From: Clostridiales bacterium
Lineage (GTDB): Bacteria; Bacillota; Clostridia; Christensenellales; Pumilibacteraceae
DNA: 51,171 nt
Reading direction: 5' to 3'
NCBI GenBank assembly: GCA_022508485.1
Contig: JAFLVD010000012.1
Span: forward strand, 9,830-61,000
The notes beneath the pieces are model-generated. The model was not told the DNA's origin. It saw nothing but the letters and a program-made list of their open reading frames with translations, and ran no database searches. Shown here one piece after another: positions 25,282 to 49,800 of the stretch. A program made the position numbers and the translations under genes. Every line of letters starts with the position of its first letter. Within the stretch, counting starts at the first letter, position 1.

Positions 25282-25287
25282 ACATAT

Positions 25288-30468: not shown

Positions 30469-33400
30469 TTACAATTTAACAATTCCGCGGTACACCTCGT
30501 GCGCCTCGCCGGTAAGAAACACCGCTTCGTCTGTGTAGCGAATAATAAGCTCGCCGCCCGGAAGCCTTACCGTTATATCCGTATCCTTATCGCAATGTCC
30601 GTTAAGCACCGCGGCGACCGCGCTTGCGCACGCGCCCGTGCCGCACGCCATAGTCTCGCCAGTGCCGCGCTCGTACACGCGAACTTTAATGTGCGTTCTG
30701 TCTATCACCTGGACAAATCCTACGTTAACGCCCTCGGGGAACAGCTTGCTGTCCGAGCCGATAGCCTTACCCATGCCCTCTACGTCGTAGCTCATAAGAT
30801 CGGGAACAAACAGCGTGCAGTGCGGATTGCCCATAGACACGCAGGTAACCTTAACCTTGCCGAGAGCGGTATCTATCTCGCGGTCGACCACTTTACCGTC
30901 CGAATCCGCTTCAAGCCTTACAGGCACGTTTTTCGGCTCGAAAACGGCAGGCCCCATATCGACCTTAACGGAATTGACCTTTCCGTCGCGTGCAAACAGT
31001 TTTAGCTTACGCACGCCCGAAAGAGTTTCCACGGTGATGTCGAGCTTGTCGGTTTTTCCGTTGTCGTAAAGGTACTTACCGACGCAGCGTATACCGTTGC
31101 CGCACATCTTTCCTTCCGAGCCGTCGGAGTTAAACATGCGCATTTTCGCGTCGCACGTCGCCGACGGATAAATGAATATAACGCCGTCGCCGCCCACGCT
31201 GTAATGTCTGTCCGAAAGATTGACCGCAACCGACTCCATATTGGTTATGGGGTGAGCGAGGCAGTCGACGTAGATATAGTCGTTGCCGCAGCCCTGCATT
31301 TTTATAAACCTGAGCTTTTGCCGTTCCGTGCGCATGTCGTTTATGTCGACAAGCTCGGTGTTGTTTTGGCTGTACCTGCTCTTTAACGCAAGCGACAGCG
31401 CGTTTGCGGTGTCTATTGCGGTAAGGCACGGAATGGCGAGCATTGTCGCGCGGCGGCGAAGCTTAACGTCGTCGAGCGTCGGAATTCTGCCGCGAGTGGA
31501 CGTCGACACGAGATAGTCGACCTTGCCGGAATTCAATAATTCCATAGTCGTCATTCTCTCGCCATTAGCGGAGTTTATCTTGTCGACGACGGTAACCTGC
31601 ATACCGGCGCGCTCAATAAGCTTAGCCGTTCCCTCGGTTGCGTACAGACTGAAACCGAGCTCGTAGTAATTTTTGGCTACGTTTACAATCTCGGGCTTAT
31701 CGGAGTTGCGGACCGAAAGAAGTATGCCGCCGGTACGGTGCATTTTGTAGCCTGCCGCCACAAGACCTTTATAGAGCGCTTCTTCGAGCGTTTTGCCGAT
31801 GCCGAGCACCTCGCCCGTCGACTTCATTTCGGGACCTAAGTGGGTGTCGAGGTCGGTAAGCTTTTCGAAGGAGAAGATAGGCACCTTGACGGCGACGTAC
31901 GGCGCGGATTTATAAAGTCCCGTGCCATAGCCGAGCTTTTTGAGCTTTTTGCCTATCATACACTCGGTAGCAAGCTTAATCATGGGAACGCCCGTAACCT
32001 TAGAAATGTACGGAATCGTTCTCGACGAGCGAGGGTTAACCTCTATGACGTAAATCTTTCCGTCGCTTATTATATACTGGATATTAACAAGTCCCCTCGT
32101 GTCGAGAGCAAGCGCAAGCTGACGGGTGTATTCTATTATTTCCTCTTTGTTCTTGTCCGAAATATTCTGCGAGGGGTAAACCGCGATAGAGTCGCCGCTG
32201 TGAATGCCGGCGCGCTCGATATGTTCCATAATGCCGGGGATAAGAATATCCTCGCCGTCGCAAATAGCGTCCACTTCCAGCTCGGTACCCATTACGTACT
32301 TATCGATAAGAACGATATTGTCGGGGTTTTCGTCGAGTATTATCGACATATATTCGTTAACGTCCTCGTCCGAAAACGCGATTATCATATTCTGTCCGCC
32401 GAGAACGTACGACGGGCGGAGTAGTACCGGGTAACCGAGGTCGTTGCCTGCCGCGAGCGCCTCTTCCGTCGTCTTAACGGTATGGCCCTTCGGACGGGAA
32501 ATGTTAAGTTTTTCAAGAAGCGCGTCGAACCGCTCTCTGTCCTCCGCCGCGTCTATCGAATCGGCGGAAGTGCCGAGGATTTTAACGCCGCTGTCGTGAA
32601 GGTGCTTGGTAAGCTTAATAGCCGTCTGACCGCCGAACGCCACGACGACGCCGTACGGACGTTCGGTCGCGATAACGTTATCTACGTCCTCTTCGGTAAG
32701 CGGCTCAAAGTACAGTCTGTCCGCCGTGTCGAAGTCGGTGGAAACGGTTTCGGGGTTATTGTTTACGATAGCGACGTCGTAGCCGAGCGCTTTAAGTTCC
32801 CACACGCAGTGGACGGAAGCGTAGTCAAACTCGATGCCTTGCCCGATTCGGATAGGTCCCGAACCGAAAACTATAACGCGCTTTCTGTCGCTCTTTTTGT
32901 TCTCTATGTATTCCTTCGCCTCGTTTTCGGAGTCGTACGTCGAATAGAAGTACGGCGTTTCGGCGGAGAACTCCGCGGCGCAGGTATCGACCGTTTTAAA
33001 CACGGCGCGTCTGTGCGTGGGAAGCGGATGACCGCTTAACGCGAGCAGAGCTTTGTCGGGATAGCCGAGTACCTTACCGTCGAGGTATTCCTCTTTCGTT
33101 ATCTTGCGCCCTCTTATCGAATTTTCGTAATCGACAAGGTTTTTGATTTTGAGCAGGAACCAGTTATCGATTTTTGTTACAGCATTGATTTTTTCGAGCG
33201 GCATTCCGCGCTTAATCGCCTCGTACAAGACAAACAGACGGTAATCGGTCGCCGGCATGAGCATGCTCTCAATTTCCTCGTCGGTACGCTCTGCATAGTG
33301 CGAATTTTCGAGCGTGTACGAGCCGAGCGCACCGCGCACGGCCTTTAACAGACCGGCTTCGAAGTTGGTTGCAATCGCCATGACCTCGCCCGTCGCCTTC

Positions 33401-34527
33401 ATCTGCGTGCCGAGCGTGCGTTTTGCGTATACGAATTTATCAAACGGCCACTTGGGCAGTTTTACGACAACATAGTCGATAGCAGGCTCGAAGCAGGCGC
33501 AGGTCTTGCCGGTAACGGCGTTTTGAATCTCGTCGAGGGTGTAGCCGAGCGCGATAAGCGTGGTAACTTTGGCAATGGGATAGCCGGTAGCCTTACTCGC
33601 AAGCGCAGAGGAACGCGAAACGCGCGGATTGACCTCGATAACGGCATATTCGCCGGTGTCGGGGTGAAGCGCGAACTGGCAGTTACAGCCGCCCTCTATC
33701 TTTAAGTGCGTAATTATATCGAGCGCCGCTGTGCGAAGCATTTGGTACTCGGAGTTACTCAGCGTCATTGTAGGCGCCACGACGATTGAATCGCCGGTAT
33801 GTATACCTACTGGATCGAGGTTTTCCATCGAGCAAACGCAAATAACGTTGCCCACGTGGTCGCGCATAACCTCGAACTCTATCTCTTTCCAGCCGTAAAT
33901 GCTCTTTTCGATTAACGCCTGGTGTATAGGCGACATTTCGAGTCCGCCGCGCACGATTTCTCTAAGCTCGGCCTCGTTGTCGGCAATACCGCCGCCCGCG
34001 CCGCCGAGCGTAAACGCAGGGCGAACGATTACCGGGTAGCCGATAGACGCCGCAAAGGTTACCGCGCTTTCTATATCGTTAACTATGTCGGACGGAACGC
34101 ACGGCTGGTTTATCTCGAGCATCGCCTTTTTAAACTGCTCTCTGTCCTCGGCCTTGTCGATTGTGTCCGGCTTAATGCCGAGAAGGCGCACGCCGTGCTT
34201 TTCCAAAAACCCGGACTTTGCAAGCTGCATGGAAAGCGTAAGACCGGTCTGACCGCCAAGTCCCGGAAGAATGCTGTCCGGTTTTTCGAGCGTGATTATA
34301 CGCTCGAGCGTGGGGATATCGAGCGGCTCGATATAAATGGAATCCGCCATTGCCTTATCGGTCATTATCGTCGCCGGGTTGGAGTTTACGAGTACGACCT
34401 CTATCTTCTTGCTCTTTAACGTTCTGCAAGCCTGCGTGCCGGCGTAGTCGAATTCCGCCGCCTGCCCTATCGTAATAGGGCCGGAACCTATGACCAAAAC
34501 TTTTTTAATACTCTTATCCTTAGGCAT
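30469..34527 (-). CDS. carB: Carbamoyl-phosphate synthase large subunit fused to diaminopimelate epimerase (CarB-DapF)
   Basis: One uninterrupted 1352-residue reading frame. Residues 1 to about 1060 are a complete CarB: two ATP-grasp halves and a C-terminal MGS-like allosteric domain ending near SLALKSRY. It makes carbamoyl phosphate from ammonia supplied by CarA. From about 1065 a full 288-residue DapF follows, with both catalytic cysteines: Cys1142 in MCGNGIRC and Cys1295 in ACGTGACAS. DapF converts LL- to meso-diaminopimelate. The ATG at 31335 at the junction has no ribosome-binding site, so separate translation is unlikely. The gene's ATG has GGAGG six bases upstream and overlaps the carA end by 8 bases. 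No linker longer than about 15 residues is seen. Confidence 0.93.
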   Translation of the reverse strand: MPKDKSIKKVLVIGSGPITIGQAAEFDYAGTQACRTLKSKKIEVVLVNSNPATIMTDKAMADSIYIEPLDIPTLERIITLEKPDSILPGLGGQTGLTLSMQLAKSGFLEKHGVRLLGIKPDTIDKAEDREQFKKAMLEINQPCVPSDIVNDIESAVTFAASIGYPVIVRPAFTLGGAGGGIADNEAELREIVRGGLEMSPIHQALIEKSIYGWKEIEFEVMRDHVGNVICVCSMENLDPVGIHTGDSIVVAPTMTLSNSEYQMLRTAALDIITHLKIEGGCNCQFALHPDTGEYAVIEVNPRVSRSSALASKATGYPIAKVTTLIALGYTLDEIQNAVTGKTCACFEPAIDYVVVKLPKWPFDKFVYAKRTLGTQMKATGEVMAIATNFEAGLLKAVRGALGSYTLENSHYAERTDEEIESMLMPATDYRLFVLYEAIKRGMPLEKINAVTKIDNWFLLKIKNLVDYENSIRGRKITKEEYLDGKVLGYPDKALLALSGHPLPTHRRAVFKTVDTCAAEFSAETPYFYSTYDSENEAKEYIENKKSDRKRVIVFGSGPIRIGQGIEFDYASVHCVWELKALGYDVAIVNNNPETVSTDFDTADRLYFEPLTEEDVDNVIATERPYGVVVAFGGQTAIKLTKHLHDSGVKILGTSADSIDAAEDRERFDALLEKLNISRPKGHTVKTTEEALAAGNDLGYPVLLRPSYVLGGQNMIIAFSDEDVNEYMSIILDENPDNIVLIDKYVMGTELEVDAICDGEDILIPGIMEHIERAGIHSGDSIAVYPSQNISDKNKEEIIEYTRQLALALDTRGLVNIQYIISDGKIYVIEVNPRSSRTIPYISKVTGVPMIKLATECMIGKKLKKLGYGTGLYKSAPYVAVKVPIFSFEKLTDLDTHLGPEMKSTGEVLGIGKTLEEALYKGLVAAGYKMHRTGGILLSVRNSDKPEIVNVAKNYYELGFSLYATEGTAKLIERAGMQVTVVDKINSANGERMTTMELLNSGKVDYLVSTSTRGRIPTLDDVKLRRRATMLAIPCLTAIDTANALSLALKSRYSQNNTELVDINDMRTERQKLRFIKMQGCGNDYIYVDCLAHPITNMESVAVNLSDRHYSVGGDGVIFIYPSATCDAKMRMFNSDGSEGKMCGNGIRCVGKYLYDNGKTDKLDITVETLSGVRKLKLFARDGKVNSVKVDMGPAVFEPKNVPVRLEADSDGKVVDREIDTALGKVKVTCVSMGNPHCTLFVPDLMSYDVEGMGKAIGSDSKLFPEGVNVGFVQVIDRTHIKVRVYERGTGETMACGTGACASAVAAVLNGHCDKDTDITVRLPGGELIIRYTDEAVFLTGEAHEVYRGIVKL

Positions 34528-35596
34528 GACATTCCTCCATGAGTTTTTCGAATCTTCCGAATAGGAATTCGGTGTCCTGCGGTCCGCCGCACGCTTCGGG
34601 GTGGAACTGTACGGAGAACTGAGGTCCTACGTAGTCTATTCCCTCTACCGTCTTATCGTTGGCGTTAACAAAGCGCACGGTACCCTTTTTGGGGTCGAGC
34701 GTATCGCCCTTAACCGCATAGCCGTGGTTTTGGCTTGTTATGTACGTTCTGCCCGTAACAATGTCCTTAACGGGCTGGTTGGCGCCGCGGTGGCCGTATT
34801 TAAGCTTAACTGTACGCGCGCCGTTGGCAAGCGCCAAAAGCTGATGCCCGAGGCATATTCCGAACATCGGGATATTAGCCGCGATAAGCTTTTTAATCTC
34901 GCCTATAATTTCGAGGTTGTCCGCAGGGTCGCCGCCGCCGTTACTGAGCATAATGCCGTCGGGTTTAAGCGCAAGCGCTTCCTCCGCCGTCGTGTGCGCA
35001 GGAACGATAATTACGTCGCAGCCGCGTTTAACGAGCACACGCTCGATATTCTTTTTTGCGCCGAAGTCGTACAGCACTACGCGAGGGCTTGTGTTTTCGG
35101 ACTCGACCCGGGAAACGGCCTTGCACGTCGTGTTTTCTACTGCGTTTTTAACGCGGAACTTCTTTAATTCCGCAAGCTTTTCGGGCAGGTTTTTAAGATC
35201 GCTCGTAATCATAGCGTTCATAACGCCGCCCGAACGGATTTTACGCGTCAGCGCGCGCGTATCTATTCCGCATATACCCACAACGTTATTCTGTTTAAGG
35301 TACTCGTCAAGCTCTAACTTTTTGCGGTAGTTGGATCCTTCCGCACAAAGCTCTCTCACTATGTACCCGGCAAGATACGGTCTGTCGCTTTCCGCGTCCT
35401 CCGGTATAGCGCCGTAGTTGCCGATAAGTGGGAATGTGTGCATTACAAGCTGACCGTAGTAGCTGGGGTCGGTCAGCGTTTGAATATAACCGCACATAGC
35501 GGTCGTAAAGACCGCCTCTCCAATCGCCGTGCCTTCGGCGCCGATGGCTTTGCCCGTTAGCACTGTTCCGTCCTTCATGATAAGGTATCTGTCCAT
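34520..35596 (-). CDS. carA: Carbamoyl-phosphate synthase small subunit
   Basis: Glutaminase subunit that channels ammonia to CarB. It has 358 residues. The N-terminal CarA domain includes TAMCGYIQTLTDPSY. The C-terminal class I amidotransferase domain has the nucleophile motif GICLGHQLLALA and a His-Glu pair in VQFHPEACGG. The ATG has GAGG five bases upstream. It lies 8 bases after purF and overlaps carB-dapF. Confidence 0.96.
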   Translation of the reverse strand: MDRYLIMKDGTVLTGKAIGAEGTAIGEAVFTTAMCGYIQTLTDPSYYGQLVMHTFPLIGNYGAIPEDAESDRPYLAGYIVRELCAEGSNYRKKLELDEYLKQNNVVGICGIDTRALTRKIRSGGVMNAMITSDLKNLPEKLAELKKFRVKNAVENTTCKAVSRVESENTSPRVVLYDFGAKKNIERVLVKRGCDVIIVPAHTTAEEALALKPDGIMLSNGGGDPADNLEIIGEIKKLIAANIPMFGICLGHQLLALANGARTVKLKYGHRGANQPVKDIVTGRTYITSQNHGYAVKGDTLDPKKGTVRFVNANDKTVEGIDYVGPQFSVQFHPEACGGPQDTEFLFGRFEKLMEECHA

Positions 35597-35604
35597 AATT
35601 ACCT

Positions 35605-37029
35605 CTATTTATCTTTCGGCGAGTTAACGTCGTCGAATGTGTTTTTTAGCGTAGGATTGACCGGCGCGGGATAGTCGCCGGTAAAGCAGCCCGTGCAAAA
35701 TCCCGTTTCGGGGGAAATAGCTTTAAGGTTTTCGAGCGAAAGATATTCGAGGCTGTCCGCGCCTATCTTCTCGCAAATTCCCTTCGTATCGTAATAGTTG
35801 GCCACAAGATGCTCGGGGCTGTCTATGTCGACGCCGAAGTAGCACGGGTACTTAAACGGCGGCGAGGAAATGCGCATGTGTACCTCTTTCGCCCCGGCGC
35901 GGCGCAGCATTTTTATTATGCGCGTGCTCGTGGTGGACCGCACTATCGAGTCGTCGATAAGTACGACTCGCTTGCCGGCAACGGTCGAGCGAATGGGGTT
36001 TAGCTTAATGTCGACCGCGTGCTCGCGCTTTACCTGGTCGGGCAGTATAAACGAGCGGCCTATGTATTTGTTTTTTACAAACGCCTGAACGACGGGAATA
36101 CCCGATTCCAGCGAGTACCCTTGCGCCGCCTGAAGTCCCGAGTCCGGCACGCCGCAAACGCAGTCGGCATCGGTGGGCATTTGGCGGTAAAGTGCGCGCC
36201 CCATCATAACGCGCGCGTCGTACACGCTTATGCCGTCGATAACCGAGTCGGGCCGCGCAAAGTACACAAACTCGAACGAGCACAATCCGCTCTGCGACGC
36301 GTTATCCAGTCTGTACGACTTCATGCCGCCCTTTAAATCGCAGCAAAGCACCTCGCCCGGCTTAATATCGCGCACGAATTCCGCACCGAGGGCGTCGAGC
36401 GCGCACGTTTCGGAAGCGAACACCGTCGATTCGCCAAGCTTACCCATGCACAGCGGACGGAAGCCGTTGCGGTCGCGGACGGCTATGAGCTTGTCCTTTG
36501 TGGCTATAACTATGGAAAACGCGCCGTCTACAATGTTCATGGACTTGACTATGGCGCGCTCTAAGTCGTTGGTCTCGAGCATATTGCGAACGATAAGAAT
36601 ATTTAATATTTCGGTGTCGTTCGTGGTGTGCATTATCATGCCCGACTGAACAAGCTCGTTTCTTATTCTGAGCGAATTAGTCAGGTTGCCGTTATGGGCA
36701 AGAGCCAGCGATATTTTGGAATGGACTGTTTCTATGGGCTGTGCGTTTTCGATGTTGCACGAGCCGGTTGTTGAATATCTTACATGACCTACCGCAATTT
36801 TGGTGTTTGCGACAAATTCGAGATAGTCGTTATTAAAAACGTCGGATACAAGCCCCATGCCCTTTTTGCATTTGAGCGTTCCGTCTACAAAAGTGGCGAT
36901 ACCGGCGCTTTCCTGACCGCGGTGTTGAAGCGCAATCAGTGCACTTGCCGTGAGCGGAACGGACGGTATAGCCTTGGGCGATATTATTCCGAATACGCCG
37001 CATTCTTCACTTAGTTTAGTTAGCTTCAC
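35605..37029 (-). CDS. purF: Amidophosphoribosyltransferase (PurF)
   Basis: It commits PRPP to purine synthesis using glutamine. It has 474 residues. The catalytic Cys10 lies after a nine-residue propeptide ending in SEE, as in class II amidotransferases that mature by N-terminal cleavage. The PRPP loop is VVLIDDSIVRSTTS. Cys residues in YPCYFGVD and FCTGCFTGDYP fit the Fe-S-binding Bacillus type. The start is GTG at 37029, with GAGG eight bases upstream. It begins 3 bases after the ANTAR gene and ends 8 bases before carA. No other pur genes are in the window. Confidence 0.95.
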   Translation of the reverse strand: MKLTKLSEECGVFGIISPKAIPSVPLTASALIALQHRGQESAGIATFVDGTLKCKKGMGLVSDVFNNDYLEFVANTKIAVGHVRYSTTGSCNIENAQPIETVHSKISLALAHNGNLTNSLRIRNELVQSGMIMHTTNDTEILNILIVRNMLETNDLERAIVKSMNIVDGAFSIVIATKDKLIAVRDRNGFRPLCMGKLGESTVFASETCALDALGAEFVRDIKPGEVLCCDLKGGMKSYRLDNASQSGLCSFEFVYFARPDSVIDGISVYDARVMMGRALYRQMPTDADCVCGVPDSGLQAAQGYSLESGIPVVQAFVKNKYIGRSFILPDQVKREHAVDIKLNPIRSTVAGKRVVLIDDSIVRSTTSTRIIKMLRRAGAKEVHMRISSPPFKYPCYFGVDIDSPEHLVANYYDTKGICEKIGADSLEYLSLENLKAISPETGFCTGCFTGDYPAPVNPTLKNTFDDVNSPKDK

Positions 37030-37032
37030 TTG

Positions 37033-37596
37033 TTATGCCTCGTAGGTTTTAAGAATATCCATTGCGACTTTTCTGCGCGACATGCGCATATCCATCGATT
37101 TTTTTTCTATAAACTTGTGCGCCTGCTCTTCCGAATAGCCGAGGGAATGCATAAGCGCTATTTTTGCGCGCGAGATGTACTTTAAGTCGTCGAGCTTTGC
37201 GTTAAGCTTTTCGTTTTGCTCTTTAAGCGCTCGCACTCTCGCGTTGGCTACCGTTACTATTCTGACCGTTTCGGCAAGCGTCGACTTTGTTATAGGTCTT
37301 ATCAGCGACACCACGCCGCACTCGCCGAGGTCGTCGGAAAACATATCCACCTTAACGTAGTCGTCGATATAAATTCCGCCGCAGTCGAAACTGTCCGCAA
37401 GGAACGCCGCAAGCTCGTTTCCCTGCTCGTCCGACAGCCCGCCGTTAATTATAAAGATATCAAAAGGGCGCACAAGAGCCGCACGCCGCGCCTCTGCGGC
37501 GTTGGAACATACCGTACAATCTATCTTGACCCGATTAAGAACGTCGGATATGGCAAACTGCATTTTGGTCGTATCCGCTACGATCAGTGCGTCCAA
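37033..37596 (-). CDS. ANTAR-domain RNA-binding antiterminator with degenerate receiver
   Basis: A 187-residue protein with a receiver-like N-terminus, a coiled coil at about 115-140 and a C-terminal ANTAR domain at about 132-187 (ISRAKIALMHSLGYSEEQAH, then MDMRMSRRKVAMDIL). ANTAR domains bind paired RNA hairpins and prevent termination. The receiver looks unable to take a phosphate: Asn51 stands at the phospho-Asp site (FDIFIIN) and Arg100 replaces the usual Lys. The layout recalls AmiR. The start is TTG with a strong AAAGGAGG six bases upstream. It lies between the glutamine synthetase homologue (32-base gap) and purF (3-base gap). Confidence 0.88.
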   Translation of the reverse strand: MDALIVADTTKMQFAISDVLNRVKIDCTVCSNAAEARRAALVRPFDIFIINGGLSDEQGNELAAFLADSFDCGGIYIDDYVKVDMFSDDLGECGVVSLIRPITKSTLAETVRIVTVANARVRALKEQNEKLNAKLDDLKYISRAKIALMHSLGYSEEQAHKFIEKKSMDMRMSRRKVAMDILKTYEA

Positions 37597-37628
37597 AAAA
37601 TACCTCCTTTAAAAATATTATTGACTGA

Positions 37629-38831
37629 CTAAATATCGGAATAGAAATCGAAAAGCTCTCTATCCGTTTCGAGCGCATGAGCGTCGTCGCGACGCTTTTG
37701 AATGGTGTCGAGTACGCCGTCGAGATGGACGGGAATTTGCTTGTGCAGCCACTCGCTACCGCGCGCAAACTTAATCGCGTCGCCAACCGAATCGAACAAG
37801 TAGTCGTTGCATTCGGATACGGGACGAAGTGAATAACCGTTTTCTATACCCTCTCTGCCGGCCGCGAAAATAAGCGACAACGCGACGAAAAGATTGCACG
37901 TCGAGTCGGGTGTTCTAAGCTGAATGGTATTGTCGTCAAATATACGAATAGCGGTACTGCGGTCGTCTGCGTATTTAATCTTGTAACCTTTCCCCAAACG
38001 CTTGTAGCTGTTTTGAGTGGGGTTTGCAAGGCAGGTTATCTCTTTGTATCTTCTCAAAATGCCTTCCGCAAACGCCCTGCTCGCCTTTTGCGAATTCTTG
38101 CCGGACAGCGTTATCGAAAGATGAAGTCCGCTTCCCGGCTGATTGGATAACGGCTTGGGCATAAAGGACGCCACGCAGCCGCTTATCGCGCTTACCGTCT
38201 TGACCGCCGCCTTAAACATAACAAAGTTACGCGCCGCGGAAATGGGGTCGGCGGACTCAAAGTCTATTTCGTTCTGGCCGGGTCCGCGTTCGTGGTGCGC
38301 GGAAATGGGTTTAAGCCCCATGTCCTCAAGACTCAATATTACGTCGCGGCGCAGCGTCTCGCATTTATCGAACGGATAGCTTGCGCAATAGTCGGCGTTA
38401 TCGATAGGCTCTAAAATGTCAGCCTCGTCCTTCATAACGTAAAACTCGCACTCCGTGGCGACCTTTGCGCTGTAACCGAGCTTAGCAAGTGCTTTAACTT
38501 CCGAATCGAGAAGCACCATAGGGTCGCAGACAAACGGCGTGCAATCGAGGTTGCCTATATTGCAAAACACGCTCACCACTCTGCCGGAATGAGGACGCCA
38601 CGGCAAATCGCTCATAAGCGCCGATACAGGCATGAGCTTTAAGTCGGTTCCGCCGACGCCTGTAAGCGACGAGCTGTCTATGGACACGCCGTGCTCGAAC
38701 GAATCCTCGAGCTGTGAGCTTAACACTGAAATATTACGCTGTCTGCCGAAAAAATCGCAAAACGTAAGCTTAACAAACTTTACGTCGTTTTCCCTAACGT
38801 ATTCGAGAAGCTCGCTTTTGGTCGAAATCAT
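37629..38831 (-). CDS. glnA: Glutamine synthetase type I homologue, possibly catalytically impaired
   Basis: A 400-residue GS-I relative, shorter than the usual ~440-470. The start is the ATG at 38831, with GGAGG six bases upstream. Conserved are the Asp52 loop (DSSS), Glu127 and Glu129 (ECEF), Glu181 and Glu188 (HHERGPGQNEID), His237, NPTQNSYKRL and the Arg pair in RSTAIRI. Compared with E. coli GlnA, the flap Glu327 (GYEAP) is replaced by Lys284 (GYKIK). The metal ligand Glu357 (RIEVR) is replaced by Gln304 (TIQLR). Loops near both sites are shortened. It may be a weak enzyme, a relative acting on another amine, or a sensor. It sits 30 bases after pgm and 32 before the ANTAR gene. Confidence 0.85.
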   Translation of the reverse strand: MISTKSELLEYVRENDVKFVKLTFCDFFGRQRNISVLSSQLEDSFEHGVSIDSSSLTGVGGTDLKLMPVSALMSDLPWRPHSGRVVSVFCNIGNLDCTPFVCDPMVLLDSEVKALAKLGYSAKVATECEFYVMKDEADILEPIDNADYCASYPFDKCETLRRDVILSLEDMGLKPISAHHERGPGQNEIDFESADPISAARNFVMFKAAVKTVSAISGCVASFMPKPLSNQPGSGLHLSITLSGKNSQKASRAFAEGILRRYKEITCLANPTQNSYKRLGKGYKIKYADDRSTAIRIFDDNTIQLRTPDSTCNLFVALSLIFAAGREGIENGYSLRPVSECNDYLFDSVGDAIKFARGSEWLHKQIPVHLDGVLDTIQKRRDDAHALETDRELFDFYSDI

Positions 38832-38861: not shown

Positions 38862-40487
38862 TTACTGCATGAATTTATTGGCTTCGGCCAAAATGGTGTC
38901 TATGCGTTTTTCTCCGCCATTCGCCGCAGTAATGTAAACCTTGATAAGCGGCTCTGTGCCAGACGGGCGAATAATAAGCTTACTGCCGTCCTCCGCCTTG
39001 TACGAAAGCACGTCCGCTTTGGGAAGGTCTGTTACCGTTTGCGTTAAGTAGTCGATACTTTCCACCACCTTGGACCCGTCAATCGCCACGGGCGGCTTGC
39101 GCCTGATGCCGGATAAAACGTCCTTCATCTTTTGCGCGCCTTCCGCGCCCTCGTAGGTAAACGAAACCGTTCTGTGATAGTATCTGCCAAACTTTGAATA
39201 AATACCTTCGAGAACGTCGGATAACGTTTTGCCCTGCTTTTTATAGCTCGCCGTCATTTCGGCAACGAGCATTGCGGCAAGCACCGCGTCCTTATCTCTT
39301 ACGTACGAGCCGGAAAGATAGCCGTAGCTCTCTTCGAAGCCTAAAATAAATCTGTCGCTCTCGCCGACCTTTTCGAGCTTTTTAATTACCTCGCCTATGT
39401 ACTTAAAGCCGGTAAGTACGTCCCTGACCTCCGCGCCGTACAACTCGGCGACAACCCTTGCAAGGTCGGTGGAAACAATGGTTTTTACCACAACCGGATT
39501 TTTGGGAAGGTCCTTTTTGTGCGAGAACAGATAGTCGATAAGAAGCACGCCCATCTCGTTACCGGTTATAAGCCGATACCCGTCCGCCGTTTTTACCGCG
39601 GCGCCGAGCCTATCCGCGTCGGGGTCGGTGCCTATTACGATGTCGGCACCCAGCTTTTTCGCAAGTTCTATGCCAAGCTTAAGCGCCTCCGCCTTTTCGG
39701 GGTTGGGATACGAGCACGTGGTAAAGTTTCCGTCCGGCCGCGCCTGCTCGGGAACAACCGTAACGTTTTTAAAACCGCGCTCAAAAAGCATTTGCGGCAC
39801 GATGTCGCAACCCGTTCCGTTAAGCGGCGTGTACACTATGGAAACGTCGTTACCTCCCCCGACCGACCGCTCGTATACCTTGTCGAGGTATTCGCGAGTA
39901 ACGTCGATAAACTTAATCGTTTTATTTTTAAGCGCGGCGTTAAAATCGGCCGCCTTAACGTCGAAGTAGTCGACCTTGTTAACGTAACCGAGGATTTCCG
40001 CTGCGGCGGAGTCGGTAACTTGGCAACCGTCCGGACCGTAAACCTTGTAGCCGTTGTACTTGGCAGGGTTATGGCTTGCGGTTATCATTATTCCGGCGTC
40101 GCAGGAAAAGTGCCTGACCATAAACGAAAGGTACGGCGTAGGTTTAAGCTTGTCGCTTATGTACGAGCTTATTCCGTTTTGCGCAAGAACCGCCGCGGCA
40201 TAGCGAGCGAATTCCTCCGAGTAATGACGGGAATCGTAGCTTATGGCTACCGACAGCTTTTTGGACTTAGACAGCAGGTAGTCGGCAAGTCCTTGAGTTG
40301 CGCGTCCCACCGTATAGTTGTTCATGCGATTTGTGCCTGCGCCTATCACGCCGCGAAGTCCGGCCGTGCCGAATTCGAGATCCTTATAGAAGGCGTCGAT
40401 TTTGGCGTCCTCGTTCATTGCGGCAAGTTCGGTCTTGAGGTCGTTAGCCTTAGCAAGCCATTCCGAGTACTTTTTAGCGATATCCAT
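38862..40487 (-). CDS. pgcA: Phosphoglucomutase / phosphomannomutase
   Basis: It interconverts glucose 1-phosphate and glucose 6-phosphate through a phosphoserine enzyme. It has 541 residues from the ATG at 40487 (GGAGG five bases upstream). The catalytic serine is in MITASHNPAKYNGYK, the metal loop is GTDPDADRLG, the sugar-binding loop is GFEESYGYL, and the phosphate-binding RPSGTEPLIKVY closes it. The length fits the Bacillus PgcA group better than the ~450-residue phosphoglucosamine mutases. It is the first gene of the operon leading to glnA, so the leader hairpin would control it too. The name is the closest match, not proven. Confidence 0.9.
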   Translation of the reverse strand: MDIAKKYSEWLAKANDLKTELAAMNEDAKIDAFYKDLEFGTAGLRGVIGAGTNRMNNYTVGRATQGLADYLLSKSKKLSVAISYDSRHYSEEFARYAAAVLAQNGISSYISDKLKPTPYLSFMVRHFSCDAGIMITASHNPAKYNGYKVYGPDGCQVTDSAAAEILGYVNKVDYFDVKAADFNAALKNKTIKFIDVTREYLDKVYERSVGGGNDVSIVYTPLNGTGCDIVPQMLFERGFKNVTVVPEQARPDGNFTTCSYPNPEKAEALKLGIELAKKLGADIVIGTDPDADRLGAAVKTADGYRLITGNEMGVLLIDYLFSHKKDLPKNPVVVKTIVSTDLARVVAELYGAEVRDVLTGFKYIGEVIKKLEKVGESDRFILGFEESYGYLSGSYVRDKDAVLAAMLVAEMTASYKKQGKTLSDVLEGIYSKFGRYYHRTVSFTYEGAEGAQKMKDVLSGIRRKPPVAIDGSKVVESIDYLTQTVTDLPKADVLSYKAEDGSKLIIRPSGTEPLIKVYITAANGGEKRIDTILAEANKFMQ

Positions 40488-40503
40488 GAAACCCTCCGTT
40501 TTG

Positions 40504-40538
40504 AAAAAAGAGAAATGTATACTATTATACACTTCTCT
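40504..40538 (-). terminator. Leader hairpin with U-run: possible attenuator of the pgm-glnA-purF operon
   Basis: On the minus strand a 13-bp stem (40526-40538 with 40509-40521, one G-U pair, 4-base AUAG loop) is followed by U6. It lies between the promoter and the ribosome-binding site of pgm, so it is in the leader rather than at the end of a gene. The stem is A/U-rich, so its strength as a terminator is uncertain. I did not see a second hairpin of the kind ANTAR proteins usually bind. Confidence 0.6.
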
Positions 40539-40573: not shown

Positions 40574-40602
40574 ATTTTATCAAATTATCGTCATTCTGTC
40601 AA
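40574..40602 (-). promoter_or_regulatory. Promoter of the pgm-glnA-ANTAR-purF-carAB-pyrG-dapL operon
   Basis: On the minus strand a perfect TTGACA (40597-40602), a 17-base spacer and TAAAAT (40574-40579) with TGA upstream. The leader to pgm is about 80 bases and contains the hairpin listed separately. Nothing else that I could identify lies between 40603 and 40742. Confidence 0.85.
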
Positions 40603-40803: not shown

Positions 40804-43800
40804 TTAGAAGTTGTCGGGATCGAAACCGTCCGGTGCGGTCGGAGGAGTTTGAGGTCCGGGACCGCCGGGGGCTTGAGTTCCGAATGTGTCGCCGGTGCCG
40901 GCACCGAGCTGCAAGCTGTTGGGCTGAGGCGCACTTTGACCGCCGCCTAACATAAGGCCGGGATCCTGCGCGGACTGCATTGTGGGAGGCAGATAGCCGT
41001 AAGACTGATAGCCTGCCATGCCGCCGCCGGACAGACGCATCATCTCTTGCTCAAGCTCAAGCTCGGAGTTAAGCAGCGCTTCTATCTCGAGGCGGAGTCT
41101 CCTACGCTTACGTACAACTGCGACTATGATTATGATAGCGATTATAATGAGAAGGATTGCGCCTGCGATAATGCCCCACATAATCGGATTGGACTGGACG
41201 GACGCCATAAAGTTCATCCACAGCGACGGTTCTTCCATATCCGTGCAGTTAATAACGATGGTGTGGGTGTACAGGGTGTTGCTAAGGTCGGTTATCGTAA
41301 AGGTGAACTCGGTCTCGCCGCGCGCTTTAAAGAGCAGTACGAGGTTGCCGTTGTCGACGTGCGCTTCCGCGTACGAGGAAATCTTTACTTCGACCGGGGT
41401 TATGAAGCGCATTACGTCCTCGGTATCGGGATCGGTAAACCAATCCTGAGGGCGAATGGTTATCATGTTGTTCTGATTGAGGTCCGCCTTACTGTACGTA
41501 CCCATGTTCTCGATCTTTCTCATAACCGGCGCATGGTTTTGAGTTATCTTAATCGGCAGAGTCTTTCTTACGTCCATGCCGCCGATTGTAAACAACACGT
41601 CGATTGTCGCGTCGGGATCTATGTAGTTGGCGGTAATCTTCCAGTCGCCGCTCTCACCGTCCGCGGACTTATCGACAAACGCCGAGGTAAGTATGTCGCC
41701 GTTCGGGTTGATAACCGAGATCGCGCCCGAAGTAGGCGTAATGCTCTTAATCGAGTAGCCGTCGGCGTTGTTCGGCTCGGTGGTCGAGTTGAGAAGCAGT
41801 GCCGGCGTAACGACGCGCGTTACCCTATTGGCTATCTCGAATTCGGGCAACGCCATATCCTCGATAGGCCTGGATACTGTGATATAAACGTTAATCGTGG
41901 TAAGTATGCCATCCTCAATCGGTATCGCCGCGCCGCGCATGTAACCGCTATCCACGACGGTAAACGATACGAGCTGAGTACCGTAAACGCCGGGAGTAAG
42001 AATGATTGCAAACTTCTGGTGGTGTTCGCTTGCGTCCCAGGTTACGTCGCAGACGGTGTTAATCTCGATTATGCCGCCCTTTCCGTCGTCGATACCGTCG
42101 GCGTTAGGACCGTAGATGGTCGGAGGGAAGTTAAGGTCGGTCTTTTCGTAAACACGCATGTCTGAGATGTAGATAAAGGTGTTGGACGACTCGTCCTCTT
42201 CCGCATTTGCGTCGTCGCCTTCGTTGATGTCGGTTACGAAGTCGAGTATGGATCGGATAATAGGCTGGGTCTCCCCGTCCTTGCCGACACCCATGACGTT
42301 TATACTCATGTTGGAGGATTTAGGCGCAGGCGCGGTGTTACCTACCGTAAGGTGGATACGCATAATGCTCGTTCTTGCGGTAAGTACCGAGTCGCGAATC
42401 TGCATTTCCACTTCCGCGCTCGAACCGCGCGCCGTGCTTATGCACTTAAACCTAATGGACTGCATGGTCGACACGCCGTACTTGTTTGTTCCGGGAGGCG
42501 CCGAGAAGCTGAACAGCGGACCGCTTGCGTTGCTAATCGTCGTCGTCGAGCTTGTCAGACAGTTGGCGACGCCGGTATTGACAAAGAAGTAAGCGTCCAT
42601 ATCGATGTCGGCGTCCTTGATGATACCGGTGCTTATAAGCTGACCCTGCGCATTGTACTGATCGGCAAAGTTGATTACAAGCGTTTCGTTGTAAGGAATG
42701 GTCGCGTACAAATCGTAGCCGCCAAGCTCGGAATAAGTGATAGTAAAGCCGTCGGTAGGTATAGTCGTCTTAGCGAACTCAGGAACGCTGTTTTCCACTT
42801 CCACATAGATGATTGTGGAAATAGTTTGCGCGTTGCGGCCCGACGAAGCGGCACGGGAGTTAAGGGTATCGCGGCAGTTAATCCTTACCGGGATAGTCGT
42901 CGTTGCCGGAACGCCTTCCTGCGACGGTTGACCGATGTTAATCTTACGGTTAACGGTAACCTTTACGCTCTTAATGATGTTGCCGTTGCCGTCGTCCACG
43001 TTGGTCGCACCTATCGAAAGAACGGGGTCGTTTGCGATAGTGGGATTGTACGCGTCGGTAGGAACGGGCTGACCGTTAAACGACTGCAGTATCTCGTGCG
43101 AAACGTACGTGAGCGTTTCCTGTCCGGTAGGCGCCCTAAGCATGTCGTAATCGTAGAACAGACCGAAATCTTCGGTAAGCCTGGAATCCTGGTTGTAAAG
43201 ACTCCAAATAATGGACTCGCCGGCTTTGCCGCTGAACACATTAAACGCGGAACCGCGGAGTGTCTTATCGGGATTGAGCGGATAGCCGTAGTTGATGTTG
43301 GTCGCCTCTACCGCGACGGGCAGGGAGTTGCTTACCGAAACGTCGACAAACGCGTCCTGCGCGGTGCCTGCGGTCGTACCGCACTTTTTGGAAACCCTAA
43401 CGTACAGAGGAATGTACCCTTCCGTATACTCGGAGTAGAATATCGTCGCCGAGTTGGGATAGAACGTAAGAATCTTGCCGTCGTCGGATATTTCGATTGT
43501 AAAGAAGCGCGAAACGTAGTCGTAAATATCGCCGTTACCGTTATAGAAGCTGCCGTTACTCTGGTTAAGGCTTACAATCAACTGTTCCTCGGAAAGGTTG
43601 CTTGAGTTGAAAGCTGTTGCGGTAAACTGGCCGTTTTCGAGCTTGGTGAGAAGCGCGTAAACGGAGACGCTGTACAGTGCGGAAGGCGCCGTCGCGTCTA
43701 CGTCCACAACGATTGCGGTATTGCTGTTGGTTTCCGTAATGAGCGCGATATCTTCGGGCGTACCGTCTACAACGTATTCGGCATAGCTCTTTAAGTTAAC

Positions 43801-46800
43801 CGTACGGTGATTTCTTGCCGTGGCTTTAACGTCGAGCGTCTTAGGCTCGATGTAAACCCTAATGAAAATCTCTTCCGACTGCGCGCCGTGCGGATCTGCC
43901 ACACGGAAGGATACGAGCGAATACTCGTCCGCTGCGCCGATAAAGTCGACCGCCGTAATGCGAATGCACATAACGGTCGCCTGCTCTATTTCTTCAACGG
44001 TAACCGCGTTAACTCCGTCGGGGTTGGTAATGGTGTACTTTTGACCGTCGTAAATGGCGGGCATGGAGAGGTTGTTGTTATCGAGGAAGTCGATATCGTT
44101 CATGAACGTGTTAAGCTGACGCATAAACGTTCCGCCGTAAGCGAGGTTGACGCGGAAAGTGTTGCTCTCGCCGGCAACGGGTATAAGGTCGGAAGGAAGT
44201 CCCGTTGTCTTTACGGAAGGCGCGGTAGGAATAACGGTAATGTTAATCGTAACCTCGACCTTTTCTTCCATGCTGCTGTCGTAAACCGTTACGACAAACG
44301 TCGCGTTGGTAACGACGCCCTTTGCGGTAATGGTTGCACTCATCGGAAGCGTGCTGTTGCCGTCGTCGGTATCGAGGAAGTTGAATCTCTCGGATATTTC
44401 GAGACGGCCTTCCGTGCCCTCGGAGAACTCGCCGATGGAAGCGTTAAAGCGCAGCGTGCTCGGCGCGTCGTCCGTAGCGAGTATAAGGTTGCCGAGCGAG
44501 CCGACTACCCTATCGGAAGGATAGGTGCTTTCGGTAAAGAACTTAAACGAATTCTTTAACGTTTCGGCGTCGTCGGTAGGATAGTTGCGGATAGTGCCGT
44601 TTCTTACCGCCGCGTCGAACATGTCGGGCGAGTTGTAGCCGCCCTTGCGGTCGTCGTCAAACGTCGTAGCGTCCGCGGCGTGGATAGTAAACGAGTCGCC
44701 CGTCTTCATGACTATGGAAAGCGACGATGAAGAACCGAACGTGTCGGGATTAAGCGAAGGCGCTTCGTTAATGTTTTGCATTACGAATACTACTTCGACG
44801 CGCGATCCGGACGAGTCGGCAAATTCGAGCTTAATTGCAATCTTGCCCCTGAACGCGGATGTTGCAAGGAATATAAGCGTAGTGCTCGATTCCTCGGACA
44901 CGGTAAGCGTTATCGGGAAGTTTGCGGCGGTCATGCCGGTCTTGTCGCTCTCGCGTTCCCAAAGCGTCTTGGCGAAGAGGTCGTCCGCGCCGCCGATGTT
45001 GGGCATTACGAGATAGTCTGTAACAAGCGTGCGGTTGGTGTCAACCGTGTTGCCGCTGGCAGGAAGGCGCGTCCACGCCTCGTCGCTCTGGGTAACCATC
45101 GACTGACCGTCGAGAAGTATATCGAGGTCGCCGAGGATGCCGGAAACGTCAAGCGAGTACTGAACGTTCTTCGCTAAGTTAAACGAGTTAACGTTGTTGT
45201 ACCTGCCCGACTGGTAGTCGTTGAAATACGATCCGTCCGCGGCGGAATACTTGATTGCGTCGTTCTCGATGCAAATGTTTATTCTGACGAGATCCCAGAA
45301 TCCGTTCTCAAAACCGGAGTCGTCGCAGTCGTCGAATATAAGTACTCTGTACTCGTAGAATATCTTTGTGATGTTGCCCTGACTGTCCCTCGTCGCTTTA
45401 AGGTTGTTGTCTTTAAGTATTTGCTCTACCTCGGAGGTCGACTTACCGGCGATGTTAAGCATCGTCTTGGCCTTCGGAACAATCTGAAGCTTATCGGTCG
45501 TGCCCGATTCGGGCGTTACCGAGAAGAACTTTTCGTAGCCGGGGTTAGGTACAAATTCGGTAGGTACGGGCGAGCTGTCCGTATAGTGTCCGCCGTTGTC
45601 GTTTGCCCTGCCGTAGTAGTAAGCAAGGTAACTGCTCGCGTCTATCAGGTTGGACTTGTTTGCGAGCGCAGATTTCTGCTCGTCGGTAATAAGGCCGGAC
45701 GAGAACAGATCTTGGTTGGTCGCGGACGGCATAAAGAATTTGAGCCTATCCTCGGAGTCAGCGTCGTTGTAGTTAATAACAACGCTGCCGTCAACCTTCT
45801 GACCTTCGGTGGAACGAAGCAGCTCGACGGTCTTGCCTATCTGAGCCGAAGGTCCCACAGCCACCGAATTTTCCATGGTCATATTTACGTCCACGGTAGG
45901 AATGTTGCCTACCTGCGGCGTAAGGTTGTTCGGTTTCGAGTTTTCGATATTTATCTCGATTGTCGCGTACTGAGTCTCCGCGCCTTCGGCAGTGGATCTA
46001 AGCGCAACGGTAAGCTTAAGCGGAACGCTCGGACGGCCTTTACCGCCGGCGGCTTTGGTTATCTCGAAGCCGAAACGATCCTCGATATAGTTACTTACGC
46101 CGCTGCTTTCGCCGTCGCCGTCCGTCCACCAGGTTACAGGCGTAAGACCGCCGTTTTGGCCGAGGGTCTGGCGCTTGACTATATAACCGCGGCTGCTTCT
46201 GCCGAGAGCAAGAGTAAGCGGATTGTTAAGCGTCTGGCCGTTAACGGTACGCCTTCCGCCCAAGTACTTGAACGTAACGAAACCGTTGTTGTTGAGGTTT
46301 GCACCCGACCAGCTCTGTCTGCCGTAGGTAAGCGTGAGGTTGGCAAATACGTCGGTATTGTACTCGTCCCACGTCGTGTACGCGGCATAGTCGAGAGGGT
46401 GATTAGCGTCGTGCTCGTCCCGAGTTACGTACGCATTGGCAAACGTAACCTTATTGGAACTGCTCGAAACGGTACCGTTAGCTACGTCGTAACCGAAAGG
46501 CAATGCAAAGTAACTTATAGGTACTACCGCGCCGCCGCTCGCGTCCGCGCCTACGTCGATGCTGCCGTAATAGAACGGGTTGGTATGGTCGTAGGTTTTG
46601 GGTTTATAAGTCAATGTGTTGCCGTCGTTGTAAGTGTTTACAAAGTACTGGCTTGCAAAGCGCTTGGTAAATCTGGCGGTGGCAAGCCCTGCCTGAGTGG
46701 TGGGCATTACGCCGTCTTCAAACTGGTAAGGTTGCAGGTTGGCGTAGCTTACGGAATAAGTATTTTTGGTGAAATCGTCGTCCTCTTCCTGTTGCTCTTC

Positions 46801-49800
46801 GCCCTGAACGACAATTCTCGACTCGGCGTTACCGTCGGTCTGGTAGAATTCGTTCATTATGATAAGGCGCGCCGCCGGGTACTGATAATAGAAGTTATCG
46901 AGCACCAGCTTTTGAGTTCCTTCGGAAGGAATAACGTTGTCGCCTCTCGTTCCTCTGTAAATATTCTGGCCGTAGTGATCGTCGGTTACGGAAATCGCTA
47001 TTTGTATAGGCGACGCTTCCGTAGCGTCGGTAACGCCGTCTCTTATGACGATTGCCCAGTACGGCGTCATTATGCTGTTGCTTGCCGACTCGACAAATAC
47101 GCCGTCCGAACGTTTGTTATAGAACTGAACCTTTACTTGAACGTAGCCGTTGGTAGTTACACCGTTGGGGCTGGTCGTTCCGTCGACGTAGGTCTTGCCA
47201 TAAATAATAGCCGCGGACTTATTGATGCCGAAATCGGTTTCGGTAATGGGCGAAGCTTGGTCGCCTACCCAGCCGCCCCTTGCGACAAGGCTTTCCACGT
47301 TGGTAAACGCTTCGGGGTTAAGGCGAACGGTCTGACGGGTATCTGCGTCGTTAAACAGCAATAGCTTGTTTGCGGCGGTCGCAGATATAGCGCTGGAGTT
47401 ATAAAGCTCTTCGTCGTTAACGAGGTAACGCGCAAAGTTCTTTTCGGAAGGATCGGTGTACGATATCATCCAAGTGTTGGTATCGGTAACCGTGTTAACG
47501 GAAAGATTGTCAGTAACGATTGCGGCGGTAGAGTTTATAATCTCTACCTGGAACATAAGCGTAGCCGTCTTTACGTCCGTTCTGTAACCGTCGGTTACCT
47601 GGAACTCGATGAATACTTTGTAAGGCAACATCTGAGTCGAGGAGTGTGCGGTAACTTTAAGCACGTCCTGCCCCATCAAGCCACCCGTACCAGCGGTAAT
47701 AACCGCGCTTACAAAAGCGGAAAGCGGTACTCTATTCGAGCTTGACGAAACGATGCCGGACCCGTTCCAGGAAGCGACTTCGGTAATATCGATCTCGTCG
47801 ACGTACTGACCGTCTACAAGCGCAAGCGTTCTCGGCGCCGCGTTAATGATATACGCAAGACCGGGGTCTTGGTCGCGGTCGTAAGCGAGCGTGCCTACGG
47901 CATACTCTTTAATCTCACCGGCGGCCATCTCTTCCCAGTGCGGCTGACCGAAGGTAGGTTGAAGCTCGGGCGCCGCGTTCTCTACGATAAGCCTTGCTAT
48001 GCAGTTTACGTTGGTCAAGCCGTCGGTAACGGTAAACCTTATAAGCACCGATACCGAAGCGGTACGGCTGAGCGTTCTGAACGAGATGCAAGGCACGCCG
48101 TTACGCGCGTCGTAGCTGATAGAATCGACGTCGAGGTACTTGTCATACTGCGCAAGCGACGCCGTTATGGACGACGTATTGACAAAGGTAAGCTGATCGA
48201 GTGTTGTGGCTGTAGGCGTAAGGTTGCCCGAATAGCTCGCCGTCTCGGTGCGCTTAACCTGATAGGTCTGCGTTATCCTTGCCGCGGTTGCGAGGTAATC
48301 GGGGTCTCTCGGGTTGGTGTTGTATACGCCGTTTGCGTTAAGCCCGTCCACTGTGTCGAAGTCGTAAACGAAGTCGTACGGGGTGATAATAAATTCCTCG
48401 TTGACTTTAATTGTAAACTGAATGTAGTTTTCGCTCGTTACAAGGCTGCGAACAAACACGCCGTTGCTGCCGATGTTAAAAGGATATGCCGTATCGGTAG
48501 GCTCTACCGAACCGGTCCAGTCGGAGGATACGGGTCTGCGCAGGTTGACAGAGCGGTTTTCCACCTTTATAAGCACCTTAATCGATGCAGTCGCCGGCGT
48601 TACGCCGCTGTCCTTAACCTTTACTTCTATCTCGAAGTAGTATTTACCCGTCGATTTAAGCGGAGTTACTTTAAGGCCTTTAAACGAAGCGACGTTATTC
48701 GAGTCGACCGAAATTCCGAGCTGCGATTTTTGCAGTCCGGTAAGGTGCGAGAACACGGACGCGTTCGCGTACAAGGTAACAAGCTCTACTTTGAAGAACG
48801 CCTCGGTGTTGTTGGCTACGACAGCCTGGGTAACGAGTGGATCGTTATAGTCGAGGTTAAGCGCAACAATCTGGTTAAGCTCGCTGTTAAACGCCGAGCT
48901 TGTATTGTACGAGAACACGTCGTCGTCCACAAGGAAGGGGCGCGCATTGTGTCCGCCTGCGCTGTTTATGGAACCGGCGTTGTCCGTTCCGATACCGTAC
49001 GCGACACCGTTTTGGGTATAGCTTACGGGCGTGAGAAGTATAGAGTCGCCGGTGGTATCGCCGTTGTTGGCGTCCTTACCGAGGTAAGACTTTTGCGTGT
49101 CGGACGCGTCGCCTCTTACAGCCGCGGGGGTGCCTTCGGTGTAGTTGTTAAACGCGAGCGAGAAGGAAGATATAGGGGTCGTGGCACGCGCCGCCGTGGA
49201 ATTTACCTGTACCGCAATCGGGAACCAAATTCCGTCGTCGGTGGAGTCGCCCTGGTCTATTACACGTACGAGAACATAGAAGTGCCCGAGACGGTTTTCG
49301 GTGTTGTACAAGTACTTGGTCGCCGCACGCGCGGTAAACTTAATTCCGCTTGCGGAAACAGTGTACGTTACGCACGCCAAAGCGGACTTGGCAGCGTCCG
49401 AAGCCGCGCAGATAATACGCGTGTCGTTGGCAAAGCCGGTAGCGGTATTGCCCTGACCTGTCTGGTAGGTCGTGGCGACGGTAGCGCCCTTATTGTAGTT
49501 GTTTCCGTTCAACGGAACGACTATGTTTTCCCTTGTAACCTGGATGTACTCGTTTGTGGGAAGCACAACCGTCGAGCCGGAGGTGGCAAACGTAATGGGC
49601 GTGCCGTCGGCGTCCTTTGCTACCTGCTCGGGAGTAACGGTAACCGATTGTCCGGCGGTAAGCGTTACAAGCGGCTCGCTTGCGATTCCGGTAGCGTAGC
49701 CGGACGACGAGGCAAAGTACGGCCTCGTATTGGAAATCTTAAATACCAGCTTAACCGTCGCCGTGCCGCCTATGGTTGCGCCTGCCGCCTTTTCTCCGAT

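Follow-up and report, generated by a model that had tools for sequence, protein, structure and literature searches.

The question raised by this locus is why a gene for a glutamine synthetase (GS) homologue with an altered active site is kept directly beside the gene of an ANTAR antiterminator. The locus lies in a 51,171-nucleotide stretch from a Clostridiales bacterium of the family Pumilibacteraceae (GCA_022508485.1, contig JAFLVD010000012.1, forward-strand positions 9,830 to 61,000), here called the window, and coordinates are counted from its first nucleotide. The window GS has probably given up glutamine synthesis and been kept as a regulatory subunit for the neighbouring ANTAR antiterminator, to which it most likely reports glutamine or glutamate as a non-synthesising GS. 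The two genes are the following.

38831 (ATG) to 37629 (stop), minus strand: GS-I-like protein of 400 amino acids (aa), identified by Pfam and alignments.
37596 (TTG start, behind AAAGGAGG) to 37033, minus strand: ANTAR protein of 187 aa, identified by Pfam.

Both GS domains exceed their Pfam cut-offs (Gln-synt_C, 1.2e-49, 169.6 bits, cut-off 24; Gln-synt_N, 3.2e-14, 52.8 bits, cut-off 33.4), which places the protein in the type-I GS (GS-I) fold family, and it aligns with a solved GS (8s59) at an E-value of 1e-60. In this phmmer alignment GYK stands opposite GYE and TIQLR opposite RIELR, putting K284 at the catalytic flap Glu (E327) and Q304 at the metal ligand E357, and the loops around both residues are shortened. 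A preliminary description of the sequence had proposed these substitutions and shortened loops, and they are borne out, with the placement of the flap residue depending on the alignment: one MAFFT run gives the Lys and a larger run the preceding Tyr, and neither run shows a Glu at this position of the window protein. A 3-residue deletion in the D50 loop relative to 8s59 can be added to that description. Residue names follow the Salmonella numbering (PMC6529630; PMC5403932). Retained in the window GS are E129, E131, E212, E220, H269, R321, R339, R344, R359, D50 and Y179, and nine of 11 core residues are kept. R339 is presumably the correct name of its site, and the division of the metal ligands into n1 and n2 is likewise presumptive. 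Because much of the amino-acid pocket (R321, R359, E131) and the n1 site are kept while the ammonium flap and one n2 ligand are lost, glutamate or glutamine is probably still bound by the protein but no longer ligated.

Against the NCBIfam equivalog model for functional GlnA, the window GS scores 210 bits, below the cut-off of 429; for comparison, an intact ANTAR-linked relative (L126) scores 434 and a standalone GS (L003) 573. Of the six metal ligands and the flap Glu expected in a functional GlnA, five ligands are kept; Gln replaces E357 and Lys the flap Glu. The substitutions are not peculiar to one genome: in an alignment of 20 genomes of the genus, the E357 column contains Gln in 12 and Met in 8, and the flap column Lys in 8, Gln in 7, Glu in 2, and Arg, His and Gly in one each. 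The equivalent of Arg62 is also absent from the window GS. The ratio of nonsynonymous to synonymous substitution rates (dN/dS) of the GS gene is 0.018-0.097 in eight species pairs, with dS above 1 in two pairs, and it resembles that of the ANTAR, phosphoglucomutase/phosphomannomutase (PGM), purF and carA genes in the same pairs (0.017-0.113); the low ratio, a sign of purifying selection, indicates that the GS gene is not a relic. A second GS was looked for in the 2.07 Mb genome, which is 96% complete, and the two GS matches are the window GS and a separate GSIII on contig 26. Each of the 20 sampled genomes of the genus has a further GS match, which its frame identifies as GSIII and which is incomplete in G008.

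The neighbouring protein belongs to the ANTAR family by its Pfam match (1.8e-14, 53.7 bits, cut-off 27.3), and its receiver domain scores 17.6 bits, below the cut-off of 30.2. It is composed of a pseudo-receiver, a coiled coil, the ANTAR domain and a C-terminal tail ending in KTYEA, and resembles the structures 1s8n, 6wsh and 1qo0 (AmiR), the first two of which we take to be Rv1626 and EutV. In the pseudo-receiver, Asn51 occupies the phospho-Asp site, the acidic pair is reduced to one Asp, an Asp stands at the Thr/Ser column and Arg replaces Lys, so that the phospho-Asp, the complete acidic pair, the Thr/Ser and the Lys of a phosphorylated response regulator are all missing from this protein. 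The Asn and the Arg had been pointed out before, and the alignment agrees. The receiver is also degenerate in the family of 96 GS-paired ANTAR proteins described below (Asn at the phospho-Asp column in 79, Asp in 10), in keeping with the earlier proposal of a phosphorylation-independent antiterminator. The equivalents of the EutV RNA-contact residues E160, M172 and R175 are kept in the window protein, with His at the Tyr164 column; E160, M172 and this His are present in 96/96 paired ANTARs. One ANTAR gene above the family cut-off was detected in the genome. Near the end of the linked ANTAR tail, a Tyr followed by E, D, K or N (mostly TYE) is present in 83 of the 96, and by analogy with the GlnR tails in Bacillus GS this tail is a candidate contact for the GS. 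As a separate observation, the ANTAR domains of the window species and its sister (L048) share two odd residues, His for Arg and Phe for Tyr, neither of which is a EutV contact residue, and both species have a diverged GSIII loop.

Conservation of the pairing was examined in a 61-genome sample (the 20 genus genomes including the present one, 17 other members of the family, and other families), in a class sample of 148 genomes, and in 110 loci fetched with an ANTAR profile (A1, built from 16 rows of which 14 were GS-linked), which are the best 80 of 579 confirmed GTDB loci and the best 30 class-sample loci. Within the genus both genes are present in 20/20 genomes and adjacent in 19; in the remaining one (G013) each occupies the end of a different contig. 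In 96 of the 110 profile loci, which come from Clostridia and some spirochaetes, the gene immediately upstream of ANTAR, in the same orientation, encodes a GS-I longer than 300 aa, mostly at a distance of 0-60 bp. Of the 14 unlinked loci, four are at a contig edge (L117, L150, L153, L169) and one is fragmented (L162); in four the ANTAR gene follows a frame that we take to be like a glutamate synthase (GOGAT) subunit, in one a frame presumably like purA, and in four nothing was recognised. In the class sample, 42 genomes have an ANTAR hit at E<=3e-52, GS adjoins it in 36, and by a hand tally 19 of these 36 GS are decayed. Among the 17 other family members, five have both a linked-clade GS and the ANTAR gene (G020, G022 on separate contigs, G026, G028, G031), two the ANTAR gene only, none the linked GS only, and ten neither, some of these ten being incomplete genomes (Fisher p 0.003). 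In the other families of the order, ANTAR stands beside the linked GS in all 11 genomes that have one, with a gap of 462 bp in G049. In total, no linked-clade GS without an ANTAR gene was found among the 36 genomes of the 61-genome sample that carry such a GS. ANTAR directly beside GS and conserved in relatives is also the arrangement of a NitR-type module.

The co-occurrence across Clostridia that had been proposed as a check thus extends far beyond the genus, and two findings named in advance as able to overturn the preliminary description did not appear, since the alignment restored no acidic residues to the active site and the pairing is conserved. The wider neighbourhood varies, with PGM, purF and carAB in the window genus and a position near GSIII in several other families of the order. 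Two further arrangements were seen. In L059 and L060 the ANTAR gene is kept between PGM and purF, a GS gene is absent, and the 2.5 kb upstream contain no remnant of one; in a scan of 19 loci with unpaired ANTAR genes, several with short upstream sequence, no degraded GS remains were found. In L073 and L079, which represent a second type of GS-ANTAR neighbourhood, a canonical, intact GS-I adjoins an unlike ANTAR protein or a short frame consisting of ANTAR alone.

Decay of the active site is frequent in the paired GS and takes different forms in different lineages. At least one of the 11 core residues is changed in 52 of the 96, a metal ligand in 27 and only the flap Glu in 22. The patterns include E327K, E327S in Sedimentibacter, E129K, E212K, H269T and E327G in Ruminococcus, and a flap change plus E357Q/M in the window genus. 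In an alignment of 71 decayed rows, R321 is retained in 70, R359 in 68, E131 in 68, E220 in 67, R344 in 66, R339 in 59, E357 in 54, E212 in 51, H269 in 50, E129 in 44 and the flap Glu in 9, a figure affected by a one-column shift of the genus flap residues; the separate genus alignment places Glu in one more row (L038). The losses fall most often on the flap and then on metal ligands, and the arginines of the glutamate pocket stay, which argues for ligand binding without ligation. D50 is kept in 92/96 paired GS, Y179 in 96/96 and Arg62 in 1/96. By comparison, all 11 GS-I adjoining more distant ANTAR hits are intact and have Arg62 (Fisher p 0.0006 against 52/96, with related rows), and all ten complete canonical GS-I of the order used as controls, eight standalone and two beside unlike ANTAR frames, are intact. 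The one decayed GS found unpaired (L054, in G022) is a member of the linked clade, and its ANTAR gene is on another contig. A FastTree tree of 125 rows groups the linked GS in a single clade (115 rows, support 99) apart from the ten-row canonical set, and the intact/decayed label requires at least nine changes, a rough count because the method joins long branches easily. As a side observation, a class genus (g60; L193, L194 and L266, three genomes) has lost n1 ligands (E131N, E212A, E220Q) and kept the flap Glu.

A possible target of the pair was sought in leader RNAs. EutV was reported to contact a single hexaloop, the minimal binding motif, and to read its base G4 (PMC8934654), and the genes for glutamine and glutamate synthase have been predicted to carry ANTAR leaders (PMC3369931; PMC3369936). 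Among class GSIII leaders, 8/12 have AANGNC as the loop of a stem with four pairs or more, ahead of a T-run, against 0.03 in shuffles, and 8/88 GS leaders have the AANGNC hexaloop, against 0.3. The single-hexaloop form was first found by eye and then counted against dinucleotide shuffles, and the count is descriptive because the AANGNC definition was chosen after the leaders had been seen. Twenty aligned leaders, picked for having it, share C-AANGNC-G. In the GSIII leaders of relatives the hexaloop overlaps a terminator. In the competing terminator 94% of cells are paired and 8 of 14 pairs have changes on both sides; in the hexaloop stem a single pair is invariant, another shows four double changes, and the outer pairs are weak. 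A leader model (R1) finds the GSIII leader in 15/20 genus genomes, nine of which had contributed to the model, and G011 gives a weak sixteenth hit; the window species, the sister species G015, G018 and the truncated G008 gave no such hit. Only R1 hits upstream of GSIII were counted, because most of the model's signal comes from its terminator, and two-way terminators at other places match it as well. A strict dual-hairpin search gave none in the window and seven weak hits across the 53 sources scanned; in class loci there were 7 hits versus 3 in reversed sequence, and in order loci 3 versus 2. Rfam found only tRNAs in three leader loci. In Ruminococcus, clean tandem AAAGNN hexaloops with a terminator lie just downstream of the ANTAR gene (L129, 7294-7326; L133, 8769-8801), and in L133 a 601-aa frame starts 40 bases beyond them.

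The GS beside ANTAR is a candidate sensor because catalysis appears to have been lost there repeatedly and the window copy is under selection. In the mechanism that we propose, modelled on NasS-NasT and AmiC-AmiR, the ligand state of the GS would decide whether the pseudo-receiver ANTAR protein is held, or released to dimerise and bind hexaloop RNA. Free ANTAR would then allow transcription through the terminators in nitrogen-gene leaders, which in most of the genus means that of GSIII; the operon itself, which contains the glutamine users purF and carAB, may be another target, judging from its placement. That the pair shares an operon with purF and carAB, or has GSIII nearby elsewhere, fits glutamine sensing without showing it. 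A broader account is put forward tentatively: in Clostridia and some spirochaetes an old GS-I paralogue may serve as the ligand receptor of ANTAR, dead many times over through lineage-specific losses with the pocket kept, reporting glutamine or glutamate, perhaps through the ANTAR tail on the GS ring, and setting GSIII readthrough by the hexaloop-terminator leader. The GS would, in this broader account, have repeatedly become a dead enzyme because its job is sensing.

Several observations weigh against a regulatory GS. The ANTAR gene occurs without a linked GS in G023 and G033, where it lies between PGM and purF, and without a GS neighbour in 6/42 of the strong class genomes, so that the partnership is not obligate. 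The figure of 96/110 overstates linkage for ANTARs at large, because the profile consists mostly of GS-linked rows and the best 80 of 579 loci were kept; among more distant ANTAR hits a GS-I adjoins in 11/20 loci. Co-expression could by itself account for the conserved adjacency. All 11 core residues are retained in 44/96 paired GS, so that regulation without catalysis is not general in the clade. In the window genome, R1 has no hit at E<=1 (150 of 953 candidates scored), and the GSIII locus and the window likewise have none; the GSIII leader loop of the window species reads GGGGTT, keeping G4 and not A1, and the attenuator of the operon (40504-40538) has no ANTAR-type AANGNC hexaloop. Strict dual hairpins are not enriched either, being present in 0/12 GSIII leaders and 1/71 GS leaders.

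Three other explanations have to be considered. The GS homologue may be a structural or metabolic subunit that has nothing to do with ANTAR, for instance an inhibitor or scaffold of GSIII, the operon being shared only through a common nitrogen response. The ANTAR genes without a GS in G023 and G033 and the presence of GSIII in the same cluster in many class loci agree with this idea, which we nevertheless consider unlikely: direct adjacency holds in 96/110 loci although the other neighbours change between a GSIII cluster and PGM-purF-carAB, and among the 36 genomes with a linked-clade GS none lacks the ANTAR gene. Slightly less probable is an active gamma-glutamyl-amine synthetase like GlnA3, GlnA4 or PauA7 that no longer uses ammonium, with the ANTAR adjacency reflecting co-regulation of nitrogen genes. 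The flap Glu is likewise missing from GlnA3, GlnA4 and PauA7, enzymes that are active or presumed active on amines (PMC5403932; PMC6529630), and 22/96 paired GS have lost the flap Glu only. In these enzymes D50 is missing too and the loops are enlarged; all six metal ligands are present in GlnA4 and PauA7, five were reported for GlnA3, and PauA7 and GlnA3 lack Y179. Here, in contrast, D50 is kept in 92/96 and Y179 in all 96, the window loops are shorter, E357 is lost in 20/20 genus members, and Ruminococcus relatives have Lys at both E129 and E212; the window protein reaches 132 bits in the gamma-glutamylputrescine synthetase model, against a cut-off of 650. Membership of the gamma-glutamyl-amine synthetases, taken as loss of the flap Glu and D50 with ligands kept and loops enlarged, does not apply to the window protein, and this reading was ranked low.

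The explanation that we find least probable is that the protein still makes glutamine, slowly or in special conditions, tolerating K284 and Q304 as a simple second GS. Nine of the 11 core residues, strong purifying selection and the flap Glu of two genus members would be expected of such an enzyme, but position E357 is Gln or Met in all 20 genus members, the GlnA score is 210 bits against a cut-off of 429, the flap and the D50 loop are shortened, and each of the 20 genomes has a GSIII-type second GS. A GS retained as a regulatory subunit of ANTAR is preferred, with moderate confidence.

The pair lies inside a putative minus-strand operon in the order PGM, GS-I homologue, ANTAR, purF, carA and carB fused to dapF; the successive intergenic gaps measure 30, 32, 3 and 8 bp, and carA overlaps carB-dapF. 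The other features of the operon are listed below.

38862..40487, minus strand: PGM, the gene that opens the putative operon, with its ATG start placed at 40487 by inference.
35605..37029, minus strand: purF, glutamine amidotransferase, 3 bp past the ANTAR gene.
34520..35596, minus strand: carA, glutamine-hydrolysing subunit of carbamoyl-phosphate synthase (CPSase).
30469..34527, minus strand: carB fused to dapF, the last operon gene read.
40504..40538, minus strand: intrinsic terminator, attenuator-like, in the operon leader, conserved in sequence in 18/19 genus leaders.
40574..40602, minus strand: promoter-like TTGACA / TAAAAT, upstream of the attenuator.

The PGM open reading frame as listed extends from 38862 to 40532, and its start at 40532 falls within the terminator. 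This terminator, between promoter and PGM, has a nearly fixed sequence, GAGAAGTGTA..ACATTTCTCTTTTTT, in those leaders. The fusion frame of 1352 aa comprises a CPSase large subunit (1-1052) and a diaminopimelate epimerase (1073-1350). purF is absent between ANTAR and carA in L036, L037, L041, L046 and L049 (G004, G005, G009, G013 and G016). Elsewhere in the window, a 3437-aa frame (40804-51117, minus strand) has a Gly-rich start and an apparent membrane helix near its C-terminus, and no NCBIfam match at 1e-10. A 6S RNA (25087-25282, minus strand, 56 bits) was detected, and the Rfam scan of the window gave tRNA and 6S and nothing else.

The pair is carried by many gut and anaerobic bacteria, and these results suggest an enzyme repeatedly turned into a nitrogen sensor. 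If true, this would clearly exemplify the repeated conversion of one enzyme family to a signalling subunit, and it would be the protein-to-RNA equivalent of the GS-GlnR circuit in Bacillus. The sensor question can be put to a direct test using a pair of small proteins and a 50-nt RNA. A decayed GS is also easily annotated as glutamine synthetase, and would thereby mislead metabolic models of gut bacteria.

Among known systems, a ligand-binding partner holds the ANTAR protein until the ligand comes in NasS-NasT and AmiC-AmiR (PMC3795266), and the pseudo-receiver of AmiR is non-phosphorylated (PMC3369936). Those partners sense nitrate/nitrite or amides, and the complex has been shown there, whereas for the GS-ANTAR pair we infer it. 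NasS and AmiC are not known to have a GS fold.

The feedback-inhibited GS of Bacillus, offered earlier as an analogue, reports glutamine status to TnrA/GlnR (PMC9249791). The parallel is not supported in that form for the window protein: the Bacillus regulators bind DNA, and in the window GS the flap Glu (Glu304) and the counterpart of Arg62 are absent and the docking E flap and D50 loop are incomplete. A Bacillus-type feedback GS was rejected on account of the missing Arg62, present in 1/96 paired GS, and flap Glu. With EutV the linked family shares a G4 hexaloop overlapping a terminator, and the window protein the residues E160, M172 and R175; EutV differs in being phosphorylated and in having Tyr164, where the linked family has His in 96/96 and mostly one hexaloop, not two.

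The closest system is NitR, for which induction of GS/GOGAT genes by antitermination under nitrogen limitation was described in C. saccharobutylicum; according to the same review, the control of ammonium assimilation by clostridial NitR and an antisense RNA has still to be worked out in full (PMC6316151). A C. thermocellum cluster contains the ANTAR gene Clo1313_2030 and, with the next locus tag, the GS-annotated Clo1313_2031 (PMC4676874). NitR and the window pair both have ANTAR beside GS; the difference is that the window-genus GS is decayed and the pair lies between PGM and purF-carAB, not with GOGAT. In C. saccharobutylicum, nitR presumably lies beside glnA. To call the locus an undescribed system, as the preliminary description did, was consequently too strong, given NitR control and the published GS-ANTAR neighbours (PMC6316151; PMC4676874). 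No report of a decayed, ANTAR-linked GS subfamily was found in searches of openly readable literature. Control of GS genes by ANTAR proteins and GS-ANTAR neighbourhoods are thus already on record, and what appears to be new is the variant seen here, a decayed, Arg62-less GS clade as the partner of ANTAR.

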